DNA from: an uncultured Collinsella sp.
GTDB lineage: Bacteria; Actinomycetota; Coriobacteriia; Coriobacteriales; Coriobacteriaceae
DNA: 64,000 nt
Assembly: GCA_934654795.1 (NCBI GenBank)
Contig: CAKUGT010000005.1
Coordinates: 1-64,000, forward strand
Direction of reading: 5' to 3'
A program made the position numbers and the translations under genes. The notes beneath the pieces were generated by a model. It searched no databases, was not told the DNA's origin, and saw only the letters and a list, made by a program, of their open reading frames with translations. Shown in pieces: positions 28,438-36,299 of the stretch. Numbering within the stretch: position 1 is the stretch's first letter; every line of letters begins with the position of its first letter.

Positions 28438-28468
28438 GGGGCGTTTCCGATGAGGAAGCGCCCCTTTT
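28438..28468 (+). terminator. Terminator of clpC
   Basis: GGGGCGTTTCC pairs with GGAAGCGCCCC, followed by TTTTCTTG. Confidence 0.88.
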
Positions 28469-28539
28469 CTTGTAGAGAAGAGTTTCCGGTAACGATAAAA
28501 TAATTGAAAAAGTTCTGCTGGATGGCAAAAGGAGTTACT

Positions 28540-29109
28540 ATGGCGAATAGCGCTCAAAGAATTGAGATGTCGTTCGATAACATGAGAAAAATCGGAATGG
28601 TTCTTTGTGCCGTGCTGGTACTTATAGCCATCGCTACCATCGCCGTCTTTGGTTCGGCATTTGTTGTTGCATACCAAAGTATTTTGAACGGCGCAGTGGT
28701 AATCGAGGGGGTCGTTGAGCTTGGTAAGGGCGGCAGCATCGCGCTCCCAAACTTGGCGCTATGGGCGGTTTTGCTCCTTGCAGGGGAGTTCACATTGTTA
28801 AGCATCAGCTTCGATGTCGCCCGTCGTCAATCGCCTTTTACTATTCGACATGCACGGATGATCACCGTCATTGCTTGCCTATTTGCAATCAATGCCGTGA
28901 TGGGCTCTCTACAGATTGGTAGCGATTTAAAAATAATGATGGGCAATTGTATGTTGAGCTGTCGTATGAATTCCGCTCTCCTTCAGATTGGTGACTCAGG
29001 CATCACTTTGGATGTGGGATCCATCATTGCAATGATGGTCGCTTTCGCTTTGTCAATCTTCTGGCGCTATGGGGCGCTTTTGCAGTCCCAGTCTGATGAT
29101 TTGGTCTAG
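28540..29109 (+). CDS. DUF2975 membrane protein
   Basis: This 189-residue protein has about four membrane segments arranged like DUF2975 proteins, including a conserved ARRQSPFT-like loop (VARRQSPFTIRHARM, about 92-106) between segments two and three. Function is unknown. Such proteins are nearly always encoded next to a small Cro/CI-type regulator, as here. AAAGGAG lies about 6 nt before ATG 28540. Base composition becomes clearly more AT-rich from this gene on, which suggests acquisition by transfer. Confidence 0.75.
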   Translation: MANSAQRIEMSFDNMRKIGMVLCAVLVLIAIATIAVFGSAFVVAYQSILNGAVVIEGVVELGKGGSIALPNLALWAVLLLAGEFTLLSISFDVARRQSPFTIRHARMITVIACLFAINAVMGSLQIGSDLKIMMGNCMLSCRMNSALLQIGDSGITLDVGSIIAMMVAFALSIFWRYGALLQSQSDDLV

Positions 29110-29119
29110 GTGATTGACC

Positions 29120-29446
29120 ATGGATTATCTCATTATTGAGGTTGAGACGCTTTTGCTTAAGACTGGGAAAACAAATGCCGATCTAATTAGGGCGACTGGG
29201 CATACGCCAGCTAACATTTCTAAAATCCGAAATGCAAAAATCAAGGCCATACGTTTGAAGACATTGCTCGATATCTGTGTTGAGTTGGATTGTCAGCCGG
29301 GAGATTTGATCCGTCGCGTGAGTGAAAAAGAACTTGAGGAACTTACCATCGCGCGCGCGCGGAACAAGATTTTGCAAAGACACAATCCCGACCCCTCCGA
29401 GACATTGCCCACAGAGGTTTACGTAGTAGATCTTTCTAAGGAATAG
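29120..29446 (+). CDS. Small Cro/CI-type HTH regulator (YozG-like)
   Basis: This 108-residue protein has a helix-turn-helix of the XRE type in its first 70 residues: ADLIRATGHTPANISKIRNA for the DNA-binding helices, then LDICVELDCQPGDLI, a typical end of the HTH_26 subfamily. About 40 polar residues follow. I prefer ATG 29120; an in-frame TTG two codons earlier is less likely. It follows the DUF2975 gene by 10 nt and lies just upstream of the peptide cluster, so it is a candidate repressor of the palindrome at 29557-29575; that link is inferred. Confidence 0.8.
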   Translation: MDYLIIEVETLLLKTGKTNADLIRATGHTPANISKIRNAKIKAIRLKTLLDICVELDCQPGDLIRRVSEKELEELTIARARNKILQRHNPDPSETLPTEVYVVDLSKE

Positions 29447-29487
29447 GAATAACAAAACAGAATAAGAAGACAAACACGTATATATGC

Positions 29488-29521
29488 AAGGCTCCTACCG
29501 CAAGCGATCGGTAGGAGCCTT
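29488..29521. terminator. Terminator between the HTH gene and the peptide cluster
   Basis: Perfect 13-bp arms AAGGCTCCTACCG and CGGTAGGAGCCTT enclose an 8-nt loop; AAATT follows, so the T tract is poor. Confidence 0.65.
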
Positions 29522-29543
29522 AAATTATTTGGAAAAAAAGTTC

Positions 29544-29575
29544 TTGAAATCATAAGGTTATCGATATACGATAAC
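29544..29575 (+). promoter_or_regulatory. Promoter with overlapping operator of the peptide precursor gene
   Basis: TTGAAA (29544-29549) and TACGAT (29567-29572) are 17 bp apart. A perfect palindrome with arms GTTATCG and CGATAAC (29557-29575, 5-bp centre) covers the -10 and part of the spacer, as expected for a repressor site. The start codon of the precursor is about 40 nt downstream. Confidence 0.6.
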
Positions 29576-29614
29576 GGAGTATTAAAACAGACGATAAATC
29601 GAAAGGGGGTAATT

Positions 29615-29725
29615 ATGAACTGGGTAATCGATCCGTGTAGCAACGTGCAGGGTGGCGGTAGTGGCTGCCGCAATTACCATCCATGTTCGCGCTGTAGCTG
29701 TTTTGGCGTATATGTCCATTTCTAG
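29615..29725 (+). CDS. Cys-rich RiPP precursor peptide (36 residues)
   Basis: This small gene encodes 36 residues with five cysteines (positions 8, 18, 24, 27, 29), a Gly-rich run (13-17, GGGSG) and an aromatic, hydrophobic end (FGVYVHF, 30-36). The start MNWVIDP is separated from the first Cys by no leader of usual length. A very strong ribosome binding site (GGGGG at 29605-29609) lies 5 nt before the ATG, and promoter and terminator bracket the gene. It heads a set of transporter genes and a radical SAM/SPASM enzyme. The N-terminus recalls, from memory, Clo7bot-type Cys-rich peptides. Product structure and activity are unknown. Confidence 0.72.
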   Translation: MNWVIDPCSNVQGGGSGCRNYHPCSRCSCFGVYVHF

Positions 29726-29765
29726 CAAGACGAACGTTAATGCTGGCTAAGACAGCAGAGGGCAA

Positions 29766-29810
29766 GCAGCGTGGTCGATAACTGCCATCCATCGGCCGCG
29801 CTGCCTTTTA
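29766..29810 (+). terminator. Hairpin terminator between the precursor and the transporter genes
   Basis: GCAGCGTGGTCGA pairs with TCGGCCGCGCTGC (two wobble pairs) around a 13-nt loop, and CTTTTA follows. Partial termination here would give much more precursor mRNA than transporter and maturase mRNA, a usual layout in RiPP operons. Confidence 0.65.
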
Positions 29811-29826
29811 ATGAGGTTCATGAAAC

Positions 29827-30555
29827 ATGGGTAATGTGATTTCAGTCAAGGATCTATCAAAACGCTACGGCAAAAGTTGGGCGTTGTCTGATGTTTCATT
29901 TGATATAGATGAGGGCGAAGTTTGCGCTCTCGTTGGGGAGAACGGCGCGGGGAAGAGTACGTTGATTGATATTCTCCTCGGTTTGCTTAAGGCAACGAAA
30001 GGCTCAATCAGTATTTTCGGTGAGTCTGGGGGAACAAGTCTGACAAGAGCACGCAGAAATATCGGATTCGTCCCCGACGGCTGTGGGGCATTCTTGAACT
30101 TAACCGGTCGAGAAAACTTGATCTCACGCTGTATCGAGTGGGGGCTGCCGAAAAGTGAAGTTAATCGAGTGCTCGCTGCTGTTGGCCTAGAAAATGCGGC
30201 GGATGCATCGGTAAAACAATACTCGCTCGGCATGAAGCGTCGTCTGGATATCGGAACGGCGCTTCTGGGCAACCCGCAACTACTCATCATGGATGAACCC
30301 ATAAACGGGCTCGATCCAGTGGGTGTGATTGAGGTGCGTGATCTCCTGCTGTCGTTGAAGGACAAACGGGATAAAACGGTGCTCATTTCAAGCCATAACC
30401 TAGATGAATTGGAGAAAGTTGCGACATCTTTTGCTTTTCTCCATCAAGGCAGACTTCTCGTTAAGGAAGAAAACTCCTACAAAGACAGAAGTCTGGAAAA
30501 GCGGTTTTTGGATTTGATCGGGGAGGCAGATAATGCAACTTCTGCGACTGATTAG
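29827..30555 (+). CDS. ABC transporter ATP-binding protein (peptide cluster)
   Basis: This 242-residue ATPase has Walker A GENGAGKST (37-45), a degenerate signature YSLGMKRRLD (instead of LSGGQ) and Walker B LLIMDEPINGLDP, the pattern of the ABC-2 and antibiotic-resistance subgroup. With the two permeases that follow it would form an exporter or an immunity pump for the peptide. The ribosome binding site is weak (GAGG about 10 nt upstream). Its 3' end overlaps the next gene by 23 nt, so translation is coupled. Confidence 0.9.
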   Translation: MGNVISVKDLSKRYGKSWALSDVSFDIDEGEVCALVGENGAGKSTLIDILLGLLKATKGSISIFGESGGTSLTRARRNIGFVPDGCGAFLNLTGRENLISRCIEWGLPKSEVNRVLAAVGLENAADASVKQYSLGMKRRLDIGTALLGNPQLLIMDEPINGLDPVGVIEVRDLLLSLKDKRDKTVLISSHNLDELEKVATSFAFLHQGRLLVKEENSYKDRSLEKRFLDLIGEADNATSATD

Positions 30556-31336
30556 ATGCGAAGCCCGTCGGTTGCTCAGAAATCCAGCCTTTTTCGTGTT
30601 GTTGATCTGGGGAGCTTGGATTGTTAAAGATGTCTGTAATCCAAATATGTATGGGACTTATGGAACATCTGATTTAGGGGGAGTCGGCAAACAGATTGGT
30701 TTCTTTGCAAACATCCTCGACAAGACTGACCCGGCTGGTTCGGCGGTTCGGACGGCACTATTCATGACCTACGAGTGGTTTTTCGTTCTAGTCGGATGCG
30801 TTGTTCTTTCCTGCGCCATGGATTATCAAAGCAGGTCTTCTGAAGTGACGTATGCAAAAGGGACGGGTGTAGCAAAGGCCGTTGTCGCAAAGTGGCTTGT
30901 TCTGGCGATTGCAACTTCAACAGCGTTCAACCTGTTTTCGGGATTCGCTCTCTTCAAATCTCCGCTTGGCTGCTATGTGGATGGGCGGGTGTTTCTTGAT
31001 AGATACCTACCCGTGTTGCTTTTGATTGATGCTATTTTGGCTGCATTAGTAGCTCAGTCGATGGCAGTTTTCTATTTACTTAGAAATGCACCGCTTAGCA
31101 TTATGTTGGTGTTGGTCGGGACGCTGCTCGCCTCCGATGAATATACGCTGGTGGTCTTTTCCAATCACGCGTCGACGCAAATTCCCTGGTGGCTCTCAGT
31201 CGGACCATACTTACGCCATCTTGGAAATCTGTGCTTTCAAGGCCTAGCCATTAATCAGATCATTCTTTTCTCTGTTATTTGCACCGTTGTTTCGTTGCGG
31301 CTCGGGGTCATGGGAATCAAAGCGAGGAGGGGGTAG
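30533..31336 (+). CDS. ABC-2 type permease 1 (peptide cluster)
   Basis: This 267-residue protein has an N-terminal amphipathic start (MQLLRLIRCEARRLLRNPAF), as in ABC-2 permeases, followed by about six membrane segments. A long extracytoplasmic stretch (about 40-75) lies between the first two. It overlaps the ATPase gene by 23 nt and precedes the second permease by 2 nt. No known subfamily signature is visible, so the assignment rests on topology and context. Confidence 0.72.
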   Translation: MQLLRLIRCEARRLLRNPAFFVLLIWGAWIVKDVCNPNMYGTYGTSDLGGVGKQIGFFANILDKTDPAGSAVRTALFMTYEWFFVLVGCVVLSCAMDYQSRSSEVTYAKGTGVAKAVVAKWLVLAIATSTAFNLFSGFALFKSPLGCYVDGRVFLDRYLPVLLLIDAILAALVAQSMAVFYLLRNAPLSIMLVLVGTLLASDEYTLVVFSNHASTQIPWWLSVGPYLRHLGNLCFQGLAINQIILFSVICTVVSLRLGVMGIKARRG

Positions 31337-31338
31337 AA

Positions 31339-32148
31339 ATGCGCTACGAAGATATGATGAAGGCTGAAGCCTATCGAGTTATGAAGAGCAAAGCGCCTCT
31401 TCTGCTGATTGCGGCAGGTTTCGTGCTCGCATTGCTTTATTCTGTGTCTTATGAACCATGGAGAGCCTACGGAACGAGCGATTGGCTTGGCGACGGTGTT
31501 ATGGGCTTCTTTCCAAACCCACAATATGGTTTCGGGGGAATTCCGGGAGACCTCGTTAAAGATGGAGCTCGCTACCTTTCCGCTGTGGCACCGCTTGCCC
31601 ATTCTCTGTTCTTTCCTATTGTTGCTGTTCTCGTCATCGGCTATGCGTTTCGAGCTCCGATAACGGGATCTCAATGGCTTGTTTCCTATGCAAGGGGAAT
31701 GAAAACAGTACAGTTGTTGGTTGCAAGGACTCTTGTCTCGATTGTCACGCTTGTCGGTGGTTTTGTTCTCTTTTCGATACTCGTTGGTGCGGTCCAAAGC
31801 GCGAGTGGCACAGGAATGACGATGGATATGATCGGAGAGTTTCTTCATCGGCTGTTTCTTGCTGCCTTGATTTGCGCAACGTTATGCCTGCTGCTCGTCC
31901 TGGCCATCTCGCTCTTTGGAAATGGCGCGTTTGTTCTATCGTTCATCATCCTGCTGCTTTATTTGGGGTACGGGAATGCAAATATGCCACTGCACTTGAC
32001 ATGGCTGGCGACCATTGCGTCCCCGCGGCCAATTCAATTCATCGTGCCGGGGACGTTGCTATTTGTAGCGCTGGCAACAGTCGTTCCCATTGTCATCCTC
32101 GGGCTTTGTTGGGCTATCAAGGGTGCTATCAGAAAACGGAGCATATAA
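31339..32148 (+). CDS. ABC-2 type permease 2 (peptide cluster)
   Basis: This 269-residue protein has the same layout as the previous permease: a charged start (MRYEDMMKAEAYRVMKSKA), one membrane segment, a long external loop with Tyr-Gly-Thr-Ser-Asp (YGTSD, also in permease 1), then five more segments. The shared YGTSD in the first loop suggests the two arose by duplication. GAGGAGGGGG lies about 5 nt before ATG 31339. The stop codon is followed directly by the maturase start. Confidence 0.74.
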   Translation: MRYEDMMKAEAYRVMKSKAPLLLIAAGFVLALLYSVSYEPWRAYGTSDWLGDGVMGFFPNPQYGFGGIPGDLVKDGARYLSAVAPLAHSLFFPIVAVLVIGYAFRAPITGSQWLVSYARGMKTVQLLVARTLVSIVTLVGGFVLFSILVGAVQSASGTGMTMDMIGEFLHRLFLAALICATLCLLLVLAISLFGNGAFVLSFIILLLYLGYGNANMPLHLTWLATIASPRPIQFIVPGTLLFVALATVVPIVILGLCWAIKGAIRKRSI

Positions 32149-33435
32149 ATGAAAGAGTCTGAATTTAACGTTATTGAAGAGAATGATGTGAACGGTATCA
32201 CTATCTACAATACCCAGTCTGGTGGCGTTCTCGACCTTGACGCTGCGCACACGAATGAGCTGAATTTATATCGCAAGGGTGCCGCCGCCTTGGATGGTGA
32301 TTTCGAAGAGGCCCTTAAGATAGGCGGCATGTTGGTAGATGACGATGTTGACGAGCGGCGACTGTTGATGCTCGAGAGCCTGTCAGCAAGGTTTGCAAAT
32401 GACTATTTAGGACTGACGATTGCTCCAACGCTGGCGTGCAACTTTAGGTGCCCCTACTGCTATGAAAAGGGCTGCTCGCACCCCACTATGTCAGAGGAAA
32501 CAATGACGGATGTCGCAACGTTTGTGCGTTCCGGCTATTCCGGGATCAACGATCTTCACGTTGACTGGTATGGAGGCGAGCCCTTACTTTGCGTGGATAT
32601 GATTGAGCGGCTGACAAAAGAACTGAGAGGAGCGATTAGGCCAGGCGCCACTTATTCTGCCGGAATGGTAACGAACGGATATCTCTTGACGCGAGAAATT
32701 GCTCAAAAGCTTGCTGATTGTCAGGTCGGTTCGGTTCAAATCACTATCGATGGCTCAAAGAGGGATCATGATTCGCGGAGGGTCCCAGCTGACGGTCGCC
32801 CGACATATGACGCCATTATCGACAATATCATCTCATGTGCCGACGTTCTTCAGATTACCATTCGCGTGAATGTTGATGAATCCAATAGCAAAGAGGTTGA
32901 TGCGTTGATCGATGAGCTTGAAGCTAGGGGGCTTCGCGGTAAAGTCGCGATTTATCTTGCGGCGGTCGACAATGTTAACGATACCTGCTCAAATGACATT
33001 CATTGTTTCTCGCAGCGTGGGTTCTCTCAAGTTGAAACATTCTTTATGGATAAAGCTAGCGAGCGCGGATTCAACGTTATTCCGTTTACGCCGTATGAAC
33101 CAGGTGTCTGCTGTGCGGTTTCCCTTAATTCGTTTGTCATCGATCCGCTTGGTAGACTTTTTAAATGTTGGGATGAGGTTGGCAAGGGCGAGTGCGCCGT
33201 TGGAAATGTTCGAGAAGGTGTGAAAGCTAATTCGAACTATTTGAAATGGATGGAGTATTTACCAAACGACCCAGTATGTGGCGAGTGTGTAATGTTTCCG
33301 GCTTGTATGGGCGGATGTCCCCACGCCGCGATGGAGGGTCAGAGAAAATGCGCGAGCGTTAAATTCAATGCCAGGCAGAGAATGCGATTGGCTTGTAATT
33401 ATCAGTATTCGCATGAGGCAAATCACGATGTTTAG
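32149..33435 (+). CDS. Radical SAM/SPASM peptide maturase
   Basis: This 428-residue enzyme should install cross-links on the Cys-rich precursor. It has an N-terminal 90-residue part with NTQSGGVLDLD, similar to precursor-binding domains; the radical SAM cluster motif CNFRCPYCYE (C97, C101, C104); the WYGGEPLL motif; and a C-terminal SPASM domain. The last shows GX4C ending at C340, then C377, C380, C386, C390 and a final C401, with C321 or C322 before, matching the seven-cysteine pattern for two extra Fe-S clusters. Family members form sactionine, thioether or other carbon links; which one is unknown. The start codon directly follows the previous stop. Confidence 0.9.
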   Translation: MKESEFNVIEENDVNGITIYNTQSGGVLDLDAAHTNELNLYRKGAAALDGDFEEALKIGGMLVDDDVDERRLLMLESLSARFANDYLGLTIAPTLACNFRCPYCYEKGCSHPTMSEETMTDVATFVRSGYSGINDLHVDWYGGEPLLCVDMIERLTKELRGAIRPGATYSAGMVTNGYLLTREIAQKLADCQVGSVQITIDGSKRDHDSRRVPADGRPTYDAIIDNIISCADVLQITIRVNVDESNSKEVDALIDELEARGLRGKVAIYLAAVDNVNDTCSNDIHCFSQRGFSQVETFFMDKASERGFNVIPFTPYEPGVCCAVSLNSFVIDPLGRLFKCWDEVGKGECAVGNVREGVKANSNYLKWMEYLPNDPVCGECVMFPACMGGCPHAAMEGQRKCASVKFNARQRMRLACNYQYSHEANHDV

Positions 33436-35059
33436 ATTTTGGAAGATATATCTCCTCCATAAGCCAAGGCTTTATGTCTATCTGCTTCTCGATGTTTTGT
33501 CTCAGCTGTGCAGCCTTGCTGAACCATATCTGTTGGGACTGACTGTAAATATGCTGGCGGCAAAAAATGTCCTCGGTATTAGTTCGCGGACACTAGTCTT
33601 ATGTATTATGGCGATTGGCGTGGTCGCCATTGTGAGGTCGGTGTTGACCTATTGGACTTCCCTAATCTATGTCGACCTTCAAGCGCATGCAGGATATCAA
33701 CTTAACGCTGACACACTTGAACATGTCAAGCGCTTGCCCCGGAAGTTTTTCATCGGATTTGATGCTGGCTATTATAATCAACAAATCAATCACGATTCAA
33801 ACGATCTCATAGTATTCGGAATAACATCGGCGTCAAATATTATTGGCGGTGTTGCAACGATAATATGTTCCTTGATTATGTTGATGAATATAAACACTGC
33901 GATGGCGATTGCCTGTTTAGCCTGCATCGTTGCGGGGGCAGTAGTTTATCGATTGTTTAGCGGGCTGCTGTTCAATCGAGGCTTTGAGTTTCAAGAAAAG
34001 ACCGCTACTTTCTTTGGGACTCTTCAGAGTCAACTGGAGAGCGTCTCCTTTCTACGTCGCCATTCGTTATTTGATTTCTATTCTTTGAGGCTGCAGAAGG
34101 CTTTCGATGGTCTTTATCCAGCTATATTGGCTAACCAAAAAGCCGGATCAAGGTTCGAACTTGCGAATCAGTTGATTTTTTCCTTTGCGCAGTTCTGTTT
34201 GCTCGCGATTGGAGGCTGTGAGATTGTCGCAGGCAAAATGCCGGTTGGTTTTCTGCTGACGGCATTGAGCTATTATTCGAGCGCCAATTCTGCTCTGGTG
34301 AACTTGCTTTCTTGGGGCAAAAGCTACCAGGCGAGCAAGGTGAGCGCCCAACGCCTTAAGCGCCTTTGGGCAATGGATGAAGAGGCGAACGGCTCTGTCC
34401 GCATTGGTTCTCCTGTTTCACTTGTGTGCAAGGGCCTGTCGATTTGTCGTCCTGATACCGATCGAATCATAGATTATCCAGAGCTCATCTCGCTTAATCG
34501 AGGAGTCTTATACGGCGTGTCGGGCGCAAACGGAAGCGGGAAAAGCACGCTTCTCGATGGCATAGCTGGTCTATATCCCGATGATTGCGTTGGGACTATT
34601 GCTTATGACGAGGTTGATTTGAGCCAGATTGATTCTATAAATCTACGCTCGCATGTCGTTGGTATTGCCGAGCAAGAACCCGATGTCGTTAACGGAACAC
34701 TCAGAGAGAATCTGACGCTACTCGCGGGCGATAATTGTCCAATTCTTGAAGTCGGGCGACTTGTAGACCAGTTTGGTCTGACCAAACTGGTCTCAACACT
34801 TCCCAATGGTCTTGATGGGGTGCTGGACGAGCAAAACCATAATATATCGGGTGGTGAGAAGCAGAAGATTGCGATTATTCGTGTATTGCTCAAGGACTCG
34901 CCCGTCATGTTATTCGATGAACCGACGTCGGCTCTTGACGGAGCGAGTAGGTCAGCGTTCATTGATATTCTGCAACAGAAGAAAGAAGATCATATAGTGG
35001 TTGTTGTCTCGCATGATCCCGAGTTGCTTGAGGCTTGCGACGAAGTGATTGAACTGTAA
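33428..35059 (+). CDS. ABC exporter with fused membrane and ATPase domains (peptide cluster)
   Basis: This 543-residue half-transporter has six membrane segments (about 10-285) and an ATPase domain with Walker A SGANGSGKST (365-374), signature ISGGEKQK and Walker B VMLFDEPTSALD, followed by the H-loop segment VVSHDPE. There is no N-terminal C39 peptidase domain, so it would export but not cut a leader. ATG 33428 overlaps the maturase end by 8 nt. It is the last gene of the cluster; the spacer after it has no clear terminator. Confidence 0.88.
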   Translation: MFRFWKIYLLHKPRLYVYLLLDVLSQLCSLAEPYLLGLTVNMLAAKNVLGISSRTLVLCIMAIGVVAIVRSVLTYWTSLIYVDLQAHAGYQLNADTLEHVKRLPRKFFIGFDAGYYNQQINHDSNDLIVFGITSASNIIGGVATIICSLIMLMNINTAMAIACLACIVAGAVVYRLFSGLLFNRGFEFQEKTATFFGTLQSQLESVSFLRRHSLFDFYSLRLQKAFDGLYPAILANQKAGSRFELANQLIFSFAQFCLLAIGGCEIVAGKMPVGFLLTALSYYSSANSALVNLLSWGKSYQASKVSAQRLKRLWAMDEEANGSVRIGSPVSLVCKGLSICRPDTDRIIDYPELISLNRGVLYGVSGANGSGKSTLLDGIAGLYPDDCVGTIAYDEVDLSQIDSINLRSHVVGIAEQEPDVVNGTLRENLTLLAGDNCPILEVGRLVDQFGLTKLVSTLPNGLDGVLDEQNHNISGGEKQKIAIIRVLLKDSPVMLFDEPTSALDGASRSAFIDILQQKKEDHIVVVVSHDPELLEACDEVIEL

Positions 35060-35274
35060 AAGCTTGTGCATGGCGCTTCGTTGCGGGACTCATTGCCTGT
35101 GGATAGCGAATTGCAGCTGATGTGGGCATTTATCTCAAACATGTATCAGCTTCTTTTATTGACTAATCCCACAACGGCAAACCCGGTCAAACGAACGCTT
35201 CAGTACTGAGGCGTCTGTCTGTCTGACAAATTGCTATACTTAATAAAGGAAAGCGTGTAGCAAAAGGAGCCAAC
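35060..35274. other. Spacer after the peptide cluster
   Basis: No gene is supported. An extended -10 (TGCTATACT, 35232-35240) lies 35 bp before the RelB-like gene and is its likely promoter; CTGACA at 35223 is too close to serve as its -35. Confidence 0.45.
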
Positions 35275-35634
35275 ATGTCTATGTCGATACTAGACTCACG
35301 GCCGGTTCAGATGAACGTGCGTATAGATCGTCAGCTCAAAGAGGCGGGAGACGCCGTCCTGACTCATATTGGCATGACGCCGTCGCAAGCCGTTCGGGCG
35401 CTTTGGGAGTATCTGGTCGTTAACGGACGAATGCCCTCGAAGGGGGACACAGCGGCTCCGGTTTCTGACGGAGTGGAGCCCCGGCGCATGGAGTCAAGGG
35501 CCGCGCAAGGCAGTCATATCGTTCGCGATTCGTGCCTCAAATACGGCATCCCCATCCCTGACTTCTCGGGAGACTATGACGACCTCTATGCGGAGGCCAT
35601 GGCGGAGCGCTATCCCGAGTGGGTGGAACTATGA
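35275..35634 (+). CDS. RelB/DinJ-like antitoxin
   Basis: This 119-residue protein has the RelB/DinJ ribbon-helix-helix start (QMNVRIDRQLKEAGDAVL, then GMTPSQAVRALWEYLV, about residues 11-50), followed by a polar middle and an acidic end that would bind the toxin. AAAGGAG precedes the ATG. It overlaps the PIN toxin gene by 4 nt (ATGA), as in antitoxin-first operons. RelB-type proteins usually pair with RelE/YafQ, so its PIN partner is less common. The complex probably represses its own promoter. Confidence 0.8.
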   Translation: MSMSILDSRPVQMNVRIDRQLKEAGDAVLTHIGMTPSQAVRALWEYLVVNGRMPSKGDTAAPVSDGVEPRRMESRAAQGSHIVRDSCLKYGIPIPDFSGDYDDLYAEAMAERYPEWVEL

Positions 35635-36152
35635 GTGCGGGCGGAATCCTCAAGTTGCTCATCGATACCAATGTATGGATGGATTATTTTTCTGGCAGGT
35701 CTGACCGTACGGCAAACGTCGTCCATCTGATCGAGATTGCCGACGCCTCGGAGCGGATTGCCCTGTTTGCCTCGTCGCTTTCGGTCAAAGACGTTTCATA
35801 TCTTGTCTCGGCGGCAATCAAGCAGGAGTGTCGAAGAAAGACTGGCTCACTGAGCGATAACGCCATTGCGGCGGCAGACGAAACGGCCTGGGCATGCGTT
35901 CGACAGATGCGCGAGCTGGCCCTCATTGCCCCGGTCGGTGCAGACGAGGTCTTCGACTCCTTTGTGTTCAAGTATCATCACAACGACTTTGAGGACGACC
36001 TGATGCTGGGCGTCGCCAATCGCATTGATGCCGATTACGTCGTGACGGAGGACAAGAACCTCATTAAACATACCAATGGCGTATGCATAGACGTTGATCA
36101 AGCGTTGAGGTTGGTTGGAGAGGTCAACAGCTCATCCGCCCTGCCCATCTAG
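35631..36152 (+). CDS. PIN-domain toxin
   Basis: This 173-residue protein is a PIN ribonuclease: LLIDTNVWMDYF gives the first catalytic aspartate (D12), and the acidic set EDDLMLGVANRIDADYVVTEDKN near 121-143 supplies the others. PIN toxins cut RNA, often tRNA or rRNA. It is longer than most VapC toxins (130-140 residues). I chose ATG 35631, overlapping the antitoxin stop; a GTG 12 nt upstream is possible but unnecessary. GC content is intermediate between the peptide cluster and the housekeeping genes. Confidence 0.82.
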   Translation: MSAGGILKLLIDTNVWMDYFSGRSDRTANVVHLIEIADASERIALFASSLSVKDVSYLVSAAIKQECRRKTGSLSDNAIAAADETAWACVRQMRELALIAPVGADEVFDSFVFKYHHNDFEDDLMLGVANRIDADYVVTEDKNLIKHTNGVCIDVDQALRLVGEVNSSSALPI

Positions 36153-36299
36153 CCTGCTCCATCTTGATAAAGTGACGTTTCCTCGCCGTTAGCCGATGAT
36201 GCGAGGGCGCTCGGCGTTTTCGACTGGTTTATGCACGCAAAGTCTGGGAATATACAAGTCGCATGTCTTACTGTCTAACCGTTGCGCCAAGGAGGCACC

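Follow-up and report, generated by a model that had tools for sequence, protein, structure and literature searches.

What would a gut bacterium do with a 36-residue peptide carrying five cysteines, whose gene is followed by a transporter set, a radical S-adenosylmethionine (SAM) enzyme, and an exporter? The question arises from a 64,000-nucleotide stretch of DNA from an uncultured Collinsella sp. (contig CAKUGT010000005.1 of assembly GCA_934654795.1), which is called the window here. The original prediction placed a cluster for a ribosomally synthesized and post-translationally modified peptide (RiPP) at 29544..35059 and proposed that its product was antimicrobial or signaling. We consider it probable that these genes form part of a genomic island that is a mobile, self-contained bacteriocin cassette. 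On the simplest reading of the sequences, the precursor, maturase, and exporter would make the product, the ABC-2 (ATP-binding cassette) transporter set would protect against it, and a helix-turn-helix (HTH) protein with a membrane partner would control both. The features of the island are as follows.

28466..35231, no strand: genomic island, with clpC as the left flank and RelB/PIN as the right flank, absent from this place in 9 of 9 relatives
28540..29109, plus strand: u28, a multi-pass membrane protein of 189 residues (five hydrophobic stretches in a crude scan), putative HTH partner
29120..29446, plus strand: Cro/C1-type HTH regulator (PF13443, E = 2.6e-15)
29488..29521, plus strand: terminator-like hairpin with a 13-pair stem, in the gap between regulator and precursor
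29544..29572, plus strand: promoter-like site TTGAAA-17-TACGAT, a consensus match only
29557..29575, no strand: palindromic putative operator GTTATCGATATACGATAAC, overlapping the -10 element of the precursor promoter
29602..29610, plus strand: precursor ribosome binding site (RBS) GAAAGGGGGT, with 8 consecutive pairs to the anti-Shine-Dalgarno sequence, wobble allowed
29615..29725, plus strand: precursor peptide of 36 residues with 5 cysteines and the N terminus MNWVIDP
29827..30555, plus strand: ABC-2 ATPase, proposed immunity (best NCBIfam match TIGR03740, 191.8 bits against a cut-off of 309.75)
30533..31336, plus strand: ABC-2 permease 1, proposed immunity (weak PF12698 match, E = 0.012, below the cut-off)
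31339..32148, plus strand: ABC-2 permease 2, proposed immunity (no family match in NCBIfam or Pfam)
32149..33435, plus strand: radical SAM/SPASM maturase with an N-terminal RiPP recognition element (RRE; residues 1 to ~83), from family matches, alignment, and structure models
33428..35059, plus strand: ABC exporter with fused transmembrane and nucleotide-binding domains, start codon inferred (PF00664 and PF00005 above the cut-offs)

All evidence for a protective role of the ABC-2 set comes from sister cassettes; a search for immunity-only relatives of the window's own cassette, with the permease 2 protein as query, gave 3 matches and was uninformative. Within our genus sample of 43 Collinsella genomes, G003 carries a full sister cassette (locus L098) in which all eight genes recur in matching order, with a maturase that is 45% identical. 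At the same site, seven genomes (G001, G004, G005, G019, G020, G037, and G040, the last on contig C46) have lost two segments, each cut out precisely. The first missing segment is the precursor gene. The promoter, palindrome, RBS, and start codon have been retained and now serve the ATPase. In six genomes the ATPase takes over the precursor's RBS together with its first two codons, and in G040 the junction is a different one. The second missing segment is the maturase plus the exporter, and its junction is identical in all seven. G028, a 72%-complete assembly, has the second gap and keeps the precursor, as an intermediate would. G043 has the first gap on a contig that ends within the ATPase, and in G010 the precursor is kept and the contig breaks off within the maturase, most of which lies on a second contig. 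The tally at this site is thus seven immunity-only cassettes, two full (G003, and G010 over two contigs), one intermediate (G028), and one cut by the contig (G043).

The genes left behind in the seven non-producers remain open. The regulator, membrane protein, ATPase, and permeases have no internal stop; the one exception to full genes is the ATPase of G037, whose alignment ends at residue 215 of 241. The retained ATPase is 52 to 54% identical to that of the window, and both permeases also have homologs there. Mean pairwise ratios of nonsynonymous to synonymous substitution (dN/dS), which also span time preceding the losses, were 0.12 for the ATPase, 0.28 and 0.27 for the permeases, 0.04 for the HTH gene, and 0.26 for the membrane protein. 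These values indicate that the non-producers keep the ABC-2 transporter under purifying selection. A different arrangement was found in G027, where the first 32 maturase residues, a stop codon, and the final 22 residues of an exporter lie beside open transporter and regulator genes. Judged by these remnants, G027 is an independent loss of the production genes. The copy in G002 is decayed: its maturase is in fragments and one permease is frameshifted. Because non-producers lost the precursor, maturase, and exporter yet keep the regulator, operator, and transporter, we read the ABC-2 set as immunity. The original prediction had correctly placed this set in the cluster; its role is better described as self-immunity than as a share in production.

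The island itself is about 6.8 kb with eight genes, and its borders were drawn from empty sites in related Collinsella. Since nine relatives have such empty sites, the island can be set at about 28466 to 35231, including the membrane protein and HTH genes. The genes of the predicted cluster therefore stand, and its start moves upstream by these two genes. In G001, G010, G015, and G043, the clpC side joins the RelB/PIN side within ~25 to 55 bp (~25 bp in G001). The RelB/PIN side resumes at 35232 in the first three of these and at 35255 in G043; in G025, G032, G003, G012, and G037, the right flank picks up only at 36186. The left border lies just after the clpC terminator. The two borders share a single word of at least 9 bases, a 10-mer, and no long terminal repeat was visible there. 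G040 has the island in the identical location with 93 to 98% DNA identity per gene. The window's clpC reaches up to 95% identity with that of genus relatives, in keeping with its origin in Collinsella. As predicted, the island is richer in AT than its flanks, with a GC content of 0.45 to 0.50 in the six 1-kb steps from 29 to 35 kb, compared to 0.52 to 0.65 in the remaining 58 steps of the window (49 of them at or above 0.57). A RelB-like/PIN toxin-antitoxin pair (35275 to 36152) adjoins the island and is missing in the five of nine relatives whose flank starts at 36186.

Distribution of the cassette is patchy. At E ≤ 1e-40 the maturase was found in 8 of the 43 genus genomes, at E ≤ 1e-60 in 11 of 396 genomes sampled from the class, and the window's precursor region was matched in only 1 of the 43, G040. 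In a look at viral carriage, 24 of the 600 pattern stretches listed from viral contigs encoded a relative, 2 of these at E < 1e-40. HTH homologs (E ≤ 1e-20) adjoined cassette genes or their remnants in 16 of 16 places across the genus sample.

The gene order of the cluster was confirmed by open reading frames (ORFs) and family matches: a small five-cysteine ORF, then the ABC-2 ATPase and two permeases, the maturase, and the fused exporter, all in one direction. The precursor, MNWVIDPCSNVQGGGSGCRNYHPCSRCSCFGVYVHF, has cysteines at positions 8, 18, 24, 27, and 29 behind its strong RBS, as had been described. It differs in G040 by 1 amino acid change and 3 silent codon changes. We surveyed ORFs of 25 to 90 residues with an RBS and at least three later cysteines, on both strands, flanking the best 80 of 492 confirmed maturase loci (among at least 590 pattern matches). 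A first look at neighborhoods had covered 11 hand-chosen loci, and surveys of cassette ORFs covered 9 loci and then 8. Counted by start codon, so that nested starts within one ORF may count repeatedly, 81 of 314 candidates on the maturase strand began with M-x-[WYF]-[IVLM], versus 3 of 153 on the opposite strand. For the stricter M-x-[WYF]-[IVLM]-x-x-P, the counts were 64 of 314 versus 1 of 153, and the single opposite-strand match (L051) itself resembles a precursor. The 64 strict starts belong to 64 different stops and are spread over several phyla, at 27 of the 80 loci; 53 loci had none. In successive groups of 20 by maturase score, 12, 7, 5, and 3 loci carried the motif, which thus drops with distance from the window maturase.

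Since motif-bearing, cysteine-rich ORFs stand beside 27 of the 80 related maturases, we conclude that a conserved motif of seven residues stands at the N terminus in place of what looked like a near-absent leader. The precursor had been called almost leaderless and unusual. The short N terminus holds, and the strangeness does not; the Clo7bot precursor model is just as short, at 34 residues. The same survey supports the proposal that this is a RiPP system, which depended on conservation of the small gene beside homologous maturases: short cysteine-rich ORFs often adjoin them. In the window, the first cysteine (position 8) abuts the motif, compared to positions 9 to 31 in the 64 strict-motif precursors. 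Cysteine spacing varies widely among cassettes. A C-terminal ending (hydrophobic, basic or polar, then aromatic or Leu) occurred in 9 of 67 precursors and was too weak for use. Precursor residue 3 associated more with the RRE than with core maturase columns (p = 0.0039 over 30 loci, with kinship uncorrected and some of the top columns in the core), a hint of co-variation between the two. We also observed arrays of strict-motif precursors beside one maturase, with nine in L047:4993-6551 (a Clostridia metagenome-assembled genome [MAG]), six in L048:3997-4932 (a Wallbacteria MAG), and seven in L059:2189-3594 (another Clostridia genome).

The maturase (428 residues) has the features of RRE-dependent radical SAM enzymes acting on RiPPs, namely, a CxxxCxxC motif, a SPASM domain, an RRE fold, and a precursor gene nearby. 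The radical SAM cysteines are C97, C101, and C104 (PF04055 match), and those of SPASM are C321, C340, C377, C380, C386, C390, and C401 (TIGR04085, 49.2 bits, above the cut-off of 27). All were invariant in 18 aligned sequences (the window's and 17 homologs), which bears out the predicted full set of cluster cysteines. Modeled alone, the N-terminal domain reached a predicted local distance difference test (pLDDT) score of 94.9, and its first 12 VIA rows were RiPP enzymes. By these models, the domain folds as an RRE, which presumably binds the precursor N terminus. A profile of this domain against solved sequences placed TigE first (E = 0.009), followed by unrelated chains at E > 0.5. For the whole maturase, the closest full-length solved fold by Foldseek was 5why/5wgg at ~20% identity, which by VIA came next after the anSMEcpe entries. 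We take 5why/5wgg to be the ranthipeptide maturase CteB.

We weighed several other explanations against the bacteriocin reading. The product could be a quorum-sensing signal, with the ABC-2 set and the HTH/membrane pair as response machinery, and the regulator kept by non-producers could then listen to the signals of others. This is unlikely: a whole ABC-2 transporter is retained under apparent purifying selection, its ATPase is closest to lantibiotic-protection ATPases, and the spacing of the cysteines differs widely from cassette to cassette. The patchy distribution and empty sites likewise suit a mobile bacteriocin better than a core signaling system. Of the two roles first proposed, the antimicrobial one gains strong support from the immunity-only sister cassettes. 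The predominance of immunity-only over full cassettes at the L098 site (seven versus two) would suit a general resistance transporter, ancestral in that form, which the production genes joined later. Loss is the better reading because the precursor's RBS and codons stand at the ATPase in six of seven non-producers and because G027 retains remnants of the maturase and exporter, and we give the ancestral order very little credence.

The chemistry and the substrate were also questioned. Another radical linkage (e.g., carbon-carbon or cyclophane), with the cysteines forming disulfides or binding metal, would be consistent with the lack of any visible fixed acceptor spacing near cysteines across 26 aligned precursors, and cyclophane maturases are among the low-scoring NCBIfam matches of the enzyme. 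The top NCBIfam models, in contrast, include maturases of cysteine-rich peptides (TIGR04463, TIGR04334, and PapB), and the nearest full-length Foldseek match is CteB; we judge another linkage improbable. Last, the small ORF might be a chance frame, with the true substrate elsewhere, and indeed no family model in NCBIfam or Pfam recognized it. Its conserved motif, strand bias, RBS, and conservation in G040 all argue the opposite. We rejected a chance frame, which is barely conceivable, on the strand control and because sister non-producers have lost its counterpart.

Returning to the bacteriocin reading, the palindrome offers a likely means of control. Its core, TATCG-N5-CGATA, occurs once in the window, where 0.06 is expected (5 of 100 shuffles had at least one match). 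At the equivalent position before the L098 precursor, 17 of 19 bases are shared, and variants precede the transporter in the non-producers. One finding weighs against this part of the reading: a plus-strand scan of L096, a two-precursor cassette, did not find the palindrome with up to 5 mismatches. The palindrome is the likely HTH operator in part of the family. The membrane protein u28 matched nothing in NCBIfam, nor anything in Pfam at E ≤ 1, and its homologs (28 to 36% identity) pair with an HTH gene in sister cassettes. The neighboring signals are less distinctive, with 12 promoter-like sites found versus 9.1 expected from shuffles and 10 hairpins of the terminator-like kind in the region versus 7.8 expected; a similar hairpin is visible in L094.

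The exporter ORF was listed from 33368. The exporter probably begins at 33428, since alignments of the homologs from L097, L098, and L099 set in at residue 21 of that ORF; those of other homologs set in at residues 8 to 16. A C39 leader peptidase within it was considered and rejected, as its Pfam matches at E ≤ 1 included none. The exporters at L150:8075-9709 and L151:5401-7035 (G235 and G287, from two genera of one order) are equal in length, identical over their first 45 residues, and of the same identity to the window exporter, which suggests a recent transfer. In L095:10295-11937, a two-precursor sister cassette, two ATPase ORFs with identical starts point to an apparent partial tandem duplication. 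Rce1-like (CPBP) membrane proteins lie within or next to sister clusters that showed no ABC-2 set (L097:37-402, L021:5796-6461, and L100:4820-5434; the L097 cluster is cut by the end of its contig). A role in bacteriocin immunity has been ascribed to such proteins. As a lead only, immunity modules may be swappable among clusters, Rce1-like in some and ABC-2 in others, or the Rce1-like proteins may serve in processing there. We rejected Rce1-like proteins as leader peptidases for the window's own precursor, since none was found in this island.

Put together, we propose that the HTH protein and its membrane partner would control the precursor promoter via the overlapping palindrome. The modeled RRE of the maturase would then bind the precursor through its first seven residues, MNWVIDP, and the radical SAM/SPASM enzyme would cross-link some of the five cysteines; homology points to thioethers of the ranthipeptide or sactipeptide type as the likeliest bonds. 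The fused exporter would secrete the product. A search of the island turned up no peptidase, so the short leader may be kept, or be cut by a protease encoded elsewhere. The ABC-2 ATPase and permeases would protect the producer, as the natural deletions imply, and the target would mainly be close relatives. More speculatively, the cassette may belong to a broad, largely unnamed group with seven-residue-motif precursors, the Collinsella bacteriocin may be exported with its motif attached, and gain and loss may reflect an arms race within one gut genus; as a whole, this remains a tentative proposal that we do not favor over its negation. If it is true, recognition sequence and active peptide would be one molecule. 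By removing production genes and sparing the proposed immunity genes, the natural deletions predict which strains should be producers, resistant, or sensitive, and the motif would offer a minimal substrate for studies of RRE-peptide recognition.

How does the cassette compare with known systems? Lantibiotic immunity ABC transporters of the LanFEG type likewise combine one ATPase with two small permeases, and the window ATPase is nearest TIGR03740. They differ in that this ATPase falls below the cut-off, the permeases pass no curated cut-off, and the set is linked here to a radical SAM cassette. Clo7bot (TIGR04333/TIGR04334) shares a very short precursor, a cysteine-rich remainder, a homologous SPASM maturase, and the N-terminal M-x-[YFW]-[IV]-x-x-P, a feature derived here and not by the model's authors. 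A motif-bearing L047 precursor scored 47.9 bits with TIGR04333 (cut-off, 31). The window precursor differs in its first cysteine directly after the motif and had no TIGR04333 match at E ≤ 1, and the maturase scored 260.9 bits with TIGR04334 against a cut-off of 600. TIGR04463 was its best NCBIfam match over nearly the full length, at 281.9 bits versus a cut-off of 525. The comparisons with Clo7bot and the SPASM subfamilies that had been suggested as checks thus passed no named family's cut-off, and we rejected membership in Clo7bot or TIGR04463. The SCIFF (CteA-CteB) ranthipeptides have the same RRE, radical SAM, and SPASM architecture and the closest full-length Foldseek match; they differ by the ~20% identity and by the window cassette being patchy, with an immunity-like transporter. 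In a review, the wide spread of SCIFFs among Clostridia is taken to argue against an antimicrobial role (PMC8326336). A 2026 survey of a rumen culture collection gives ranthipeptides as the most frequent predicted peptide class and describes the class as without well-characterized antimicrobial activity (PMC13289728). Because the Clo7bot and TIGR04463 cut-offs were not reached, membership in a named family is not supported; what the analysis does support is a system that would work like a thioether-peptide bacteriocin.

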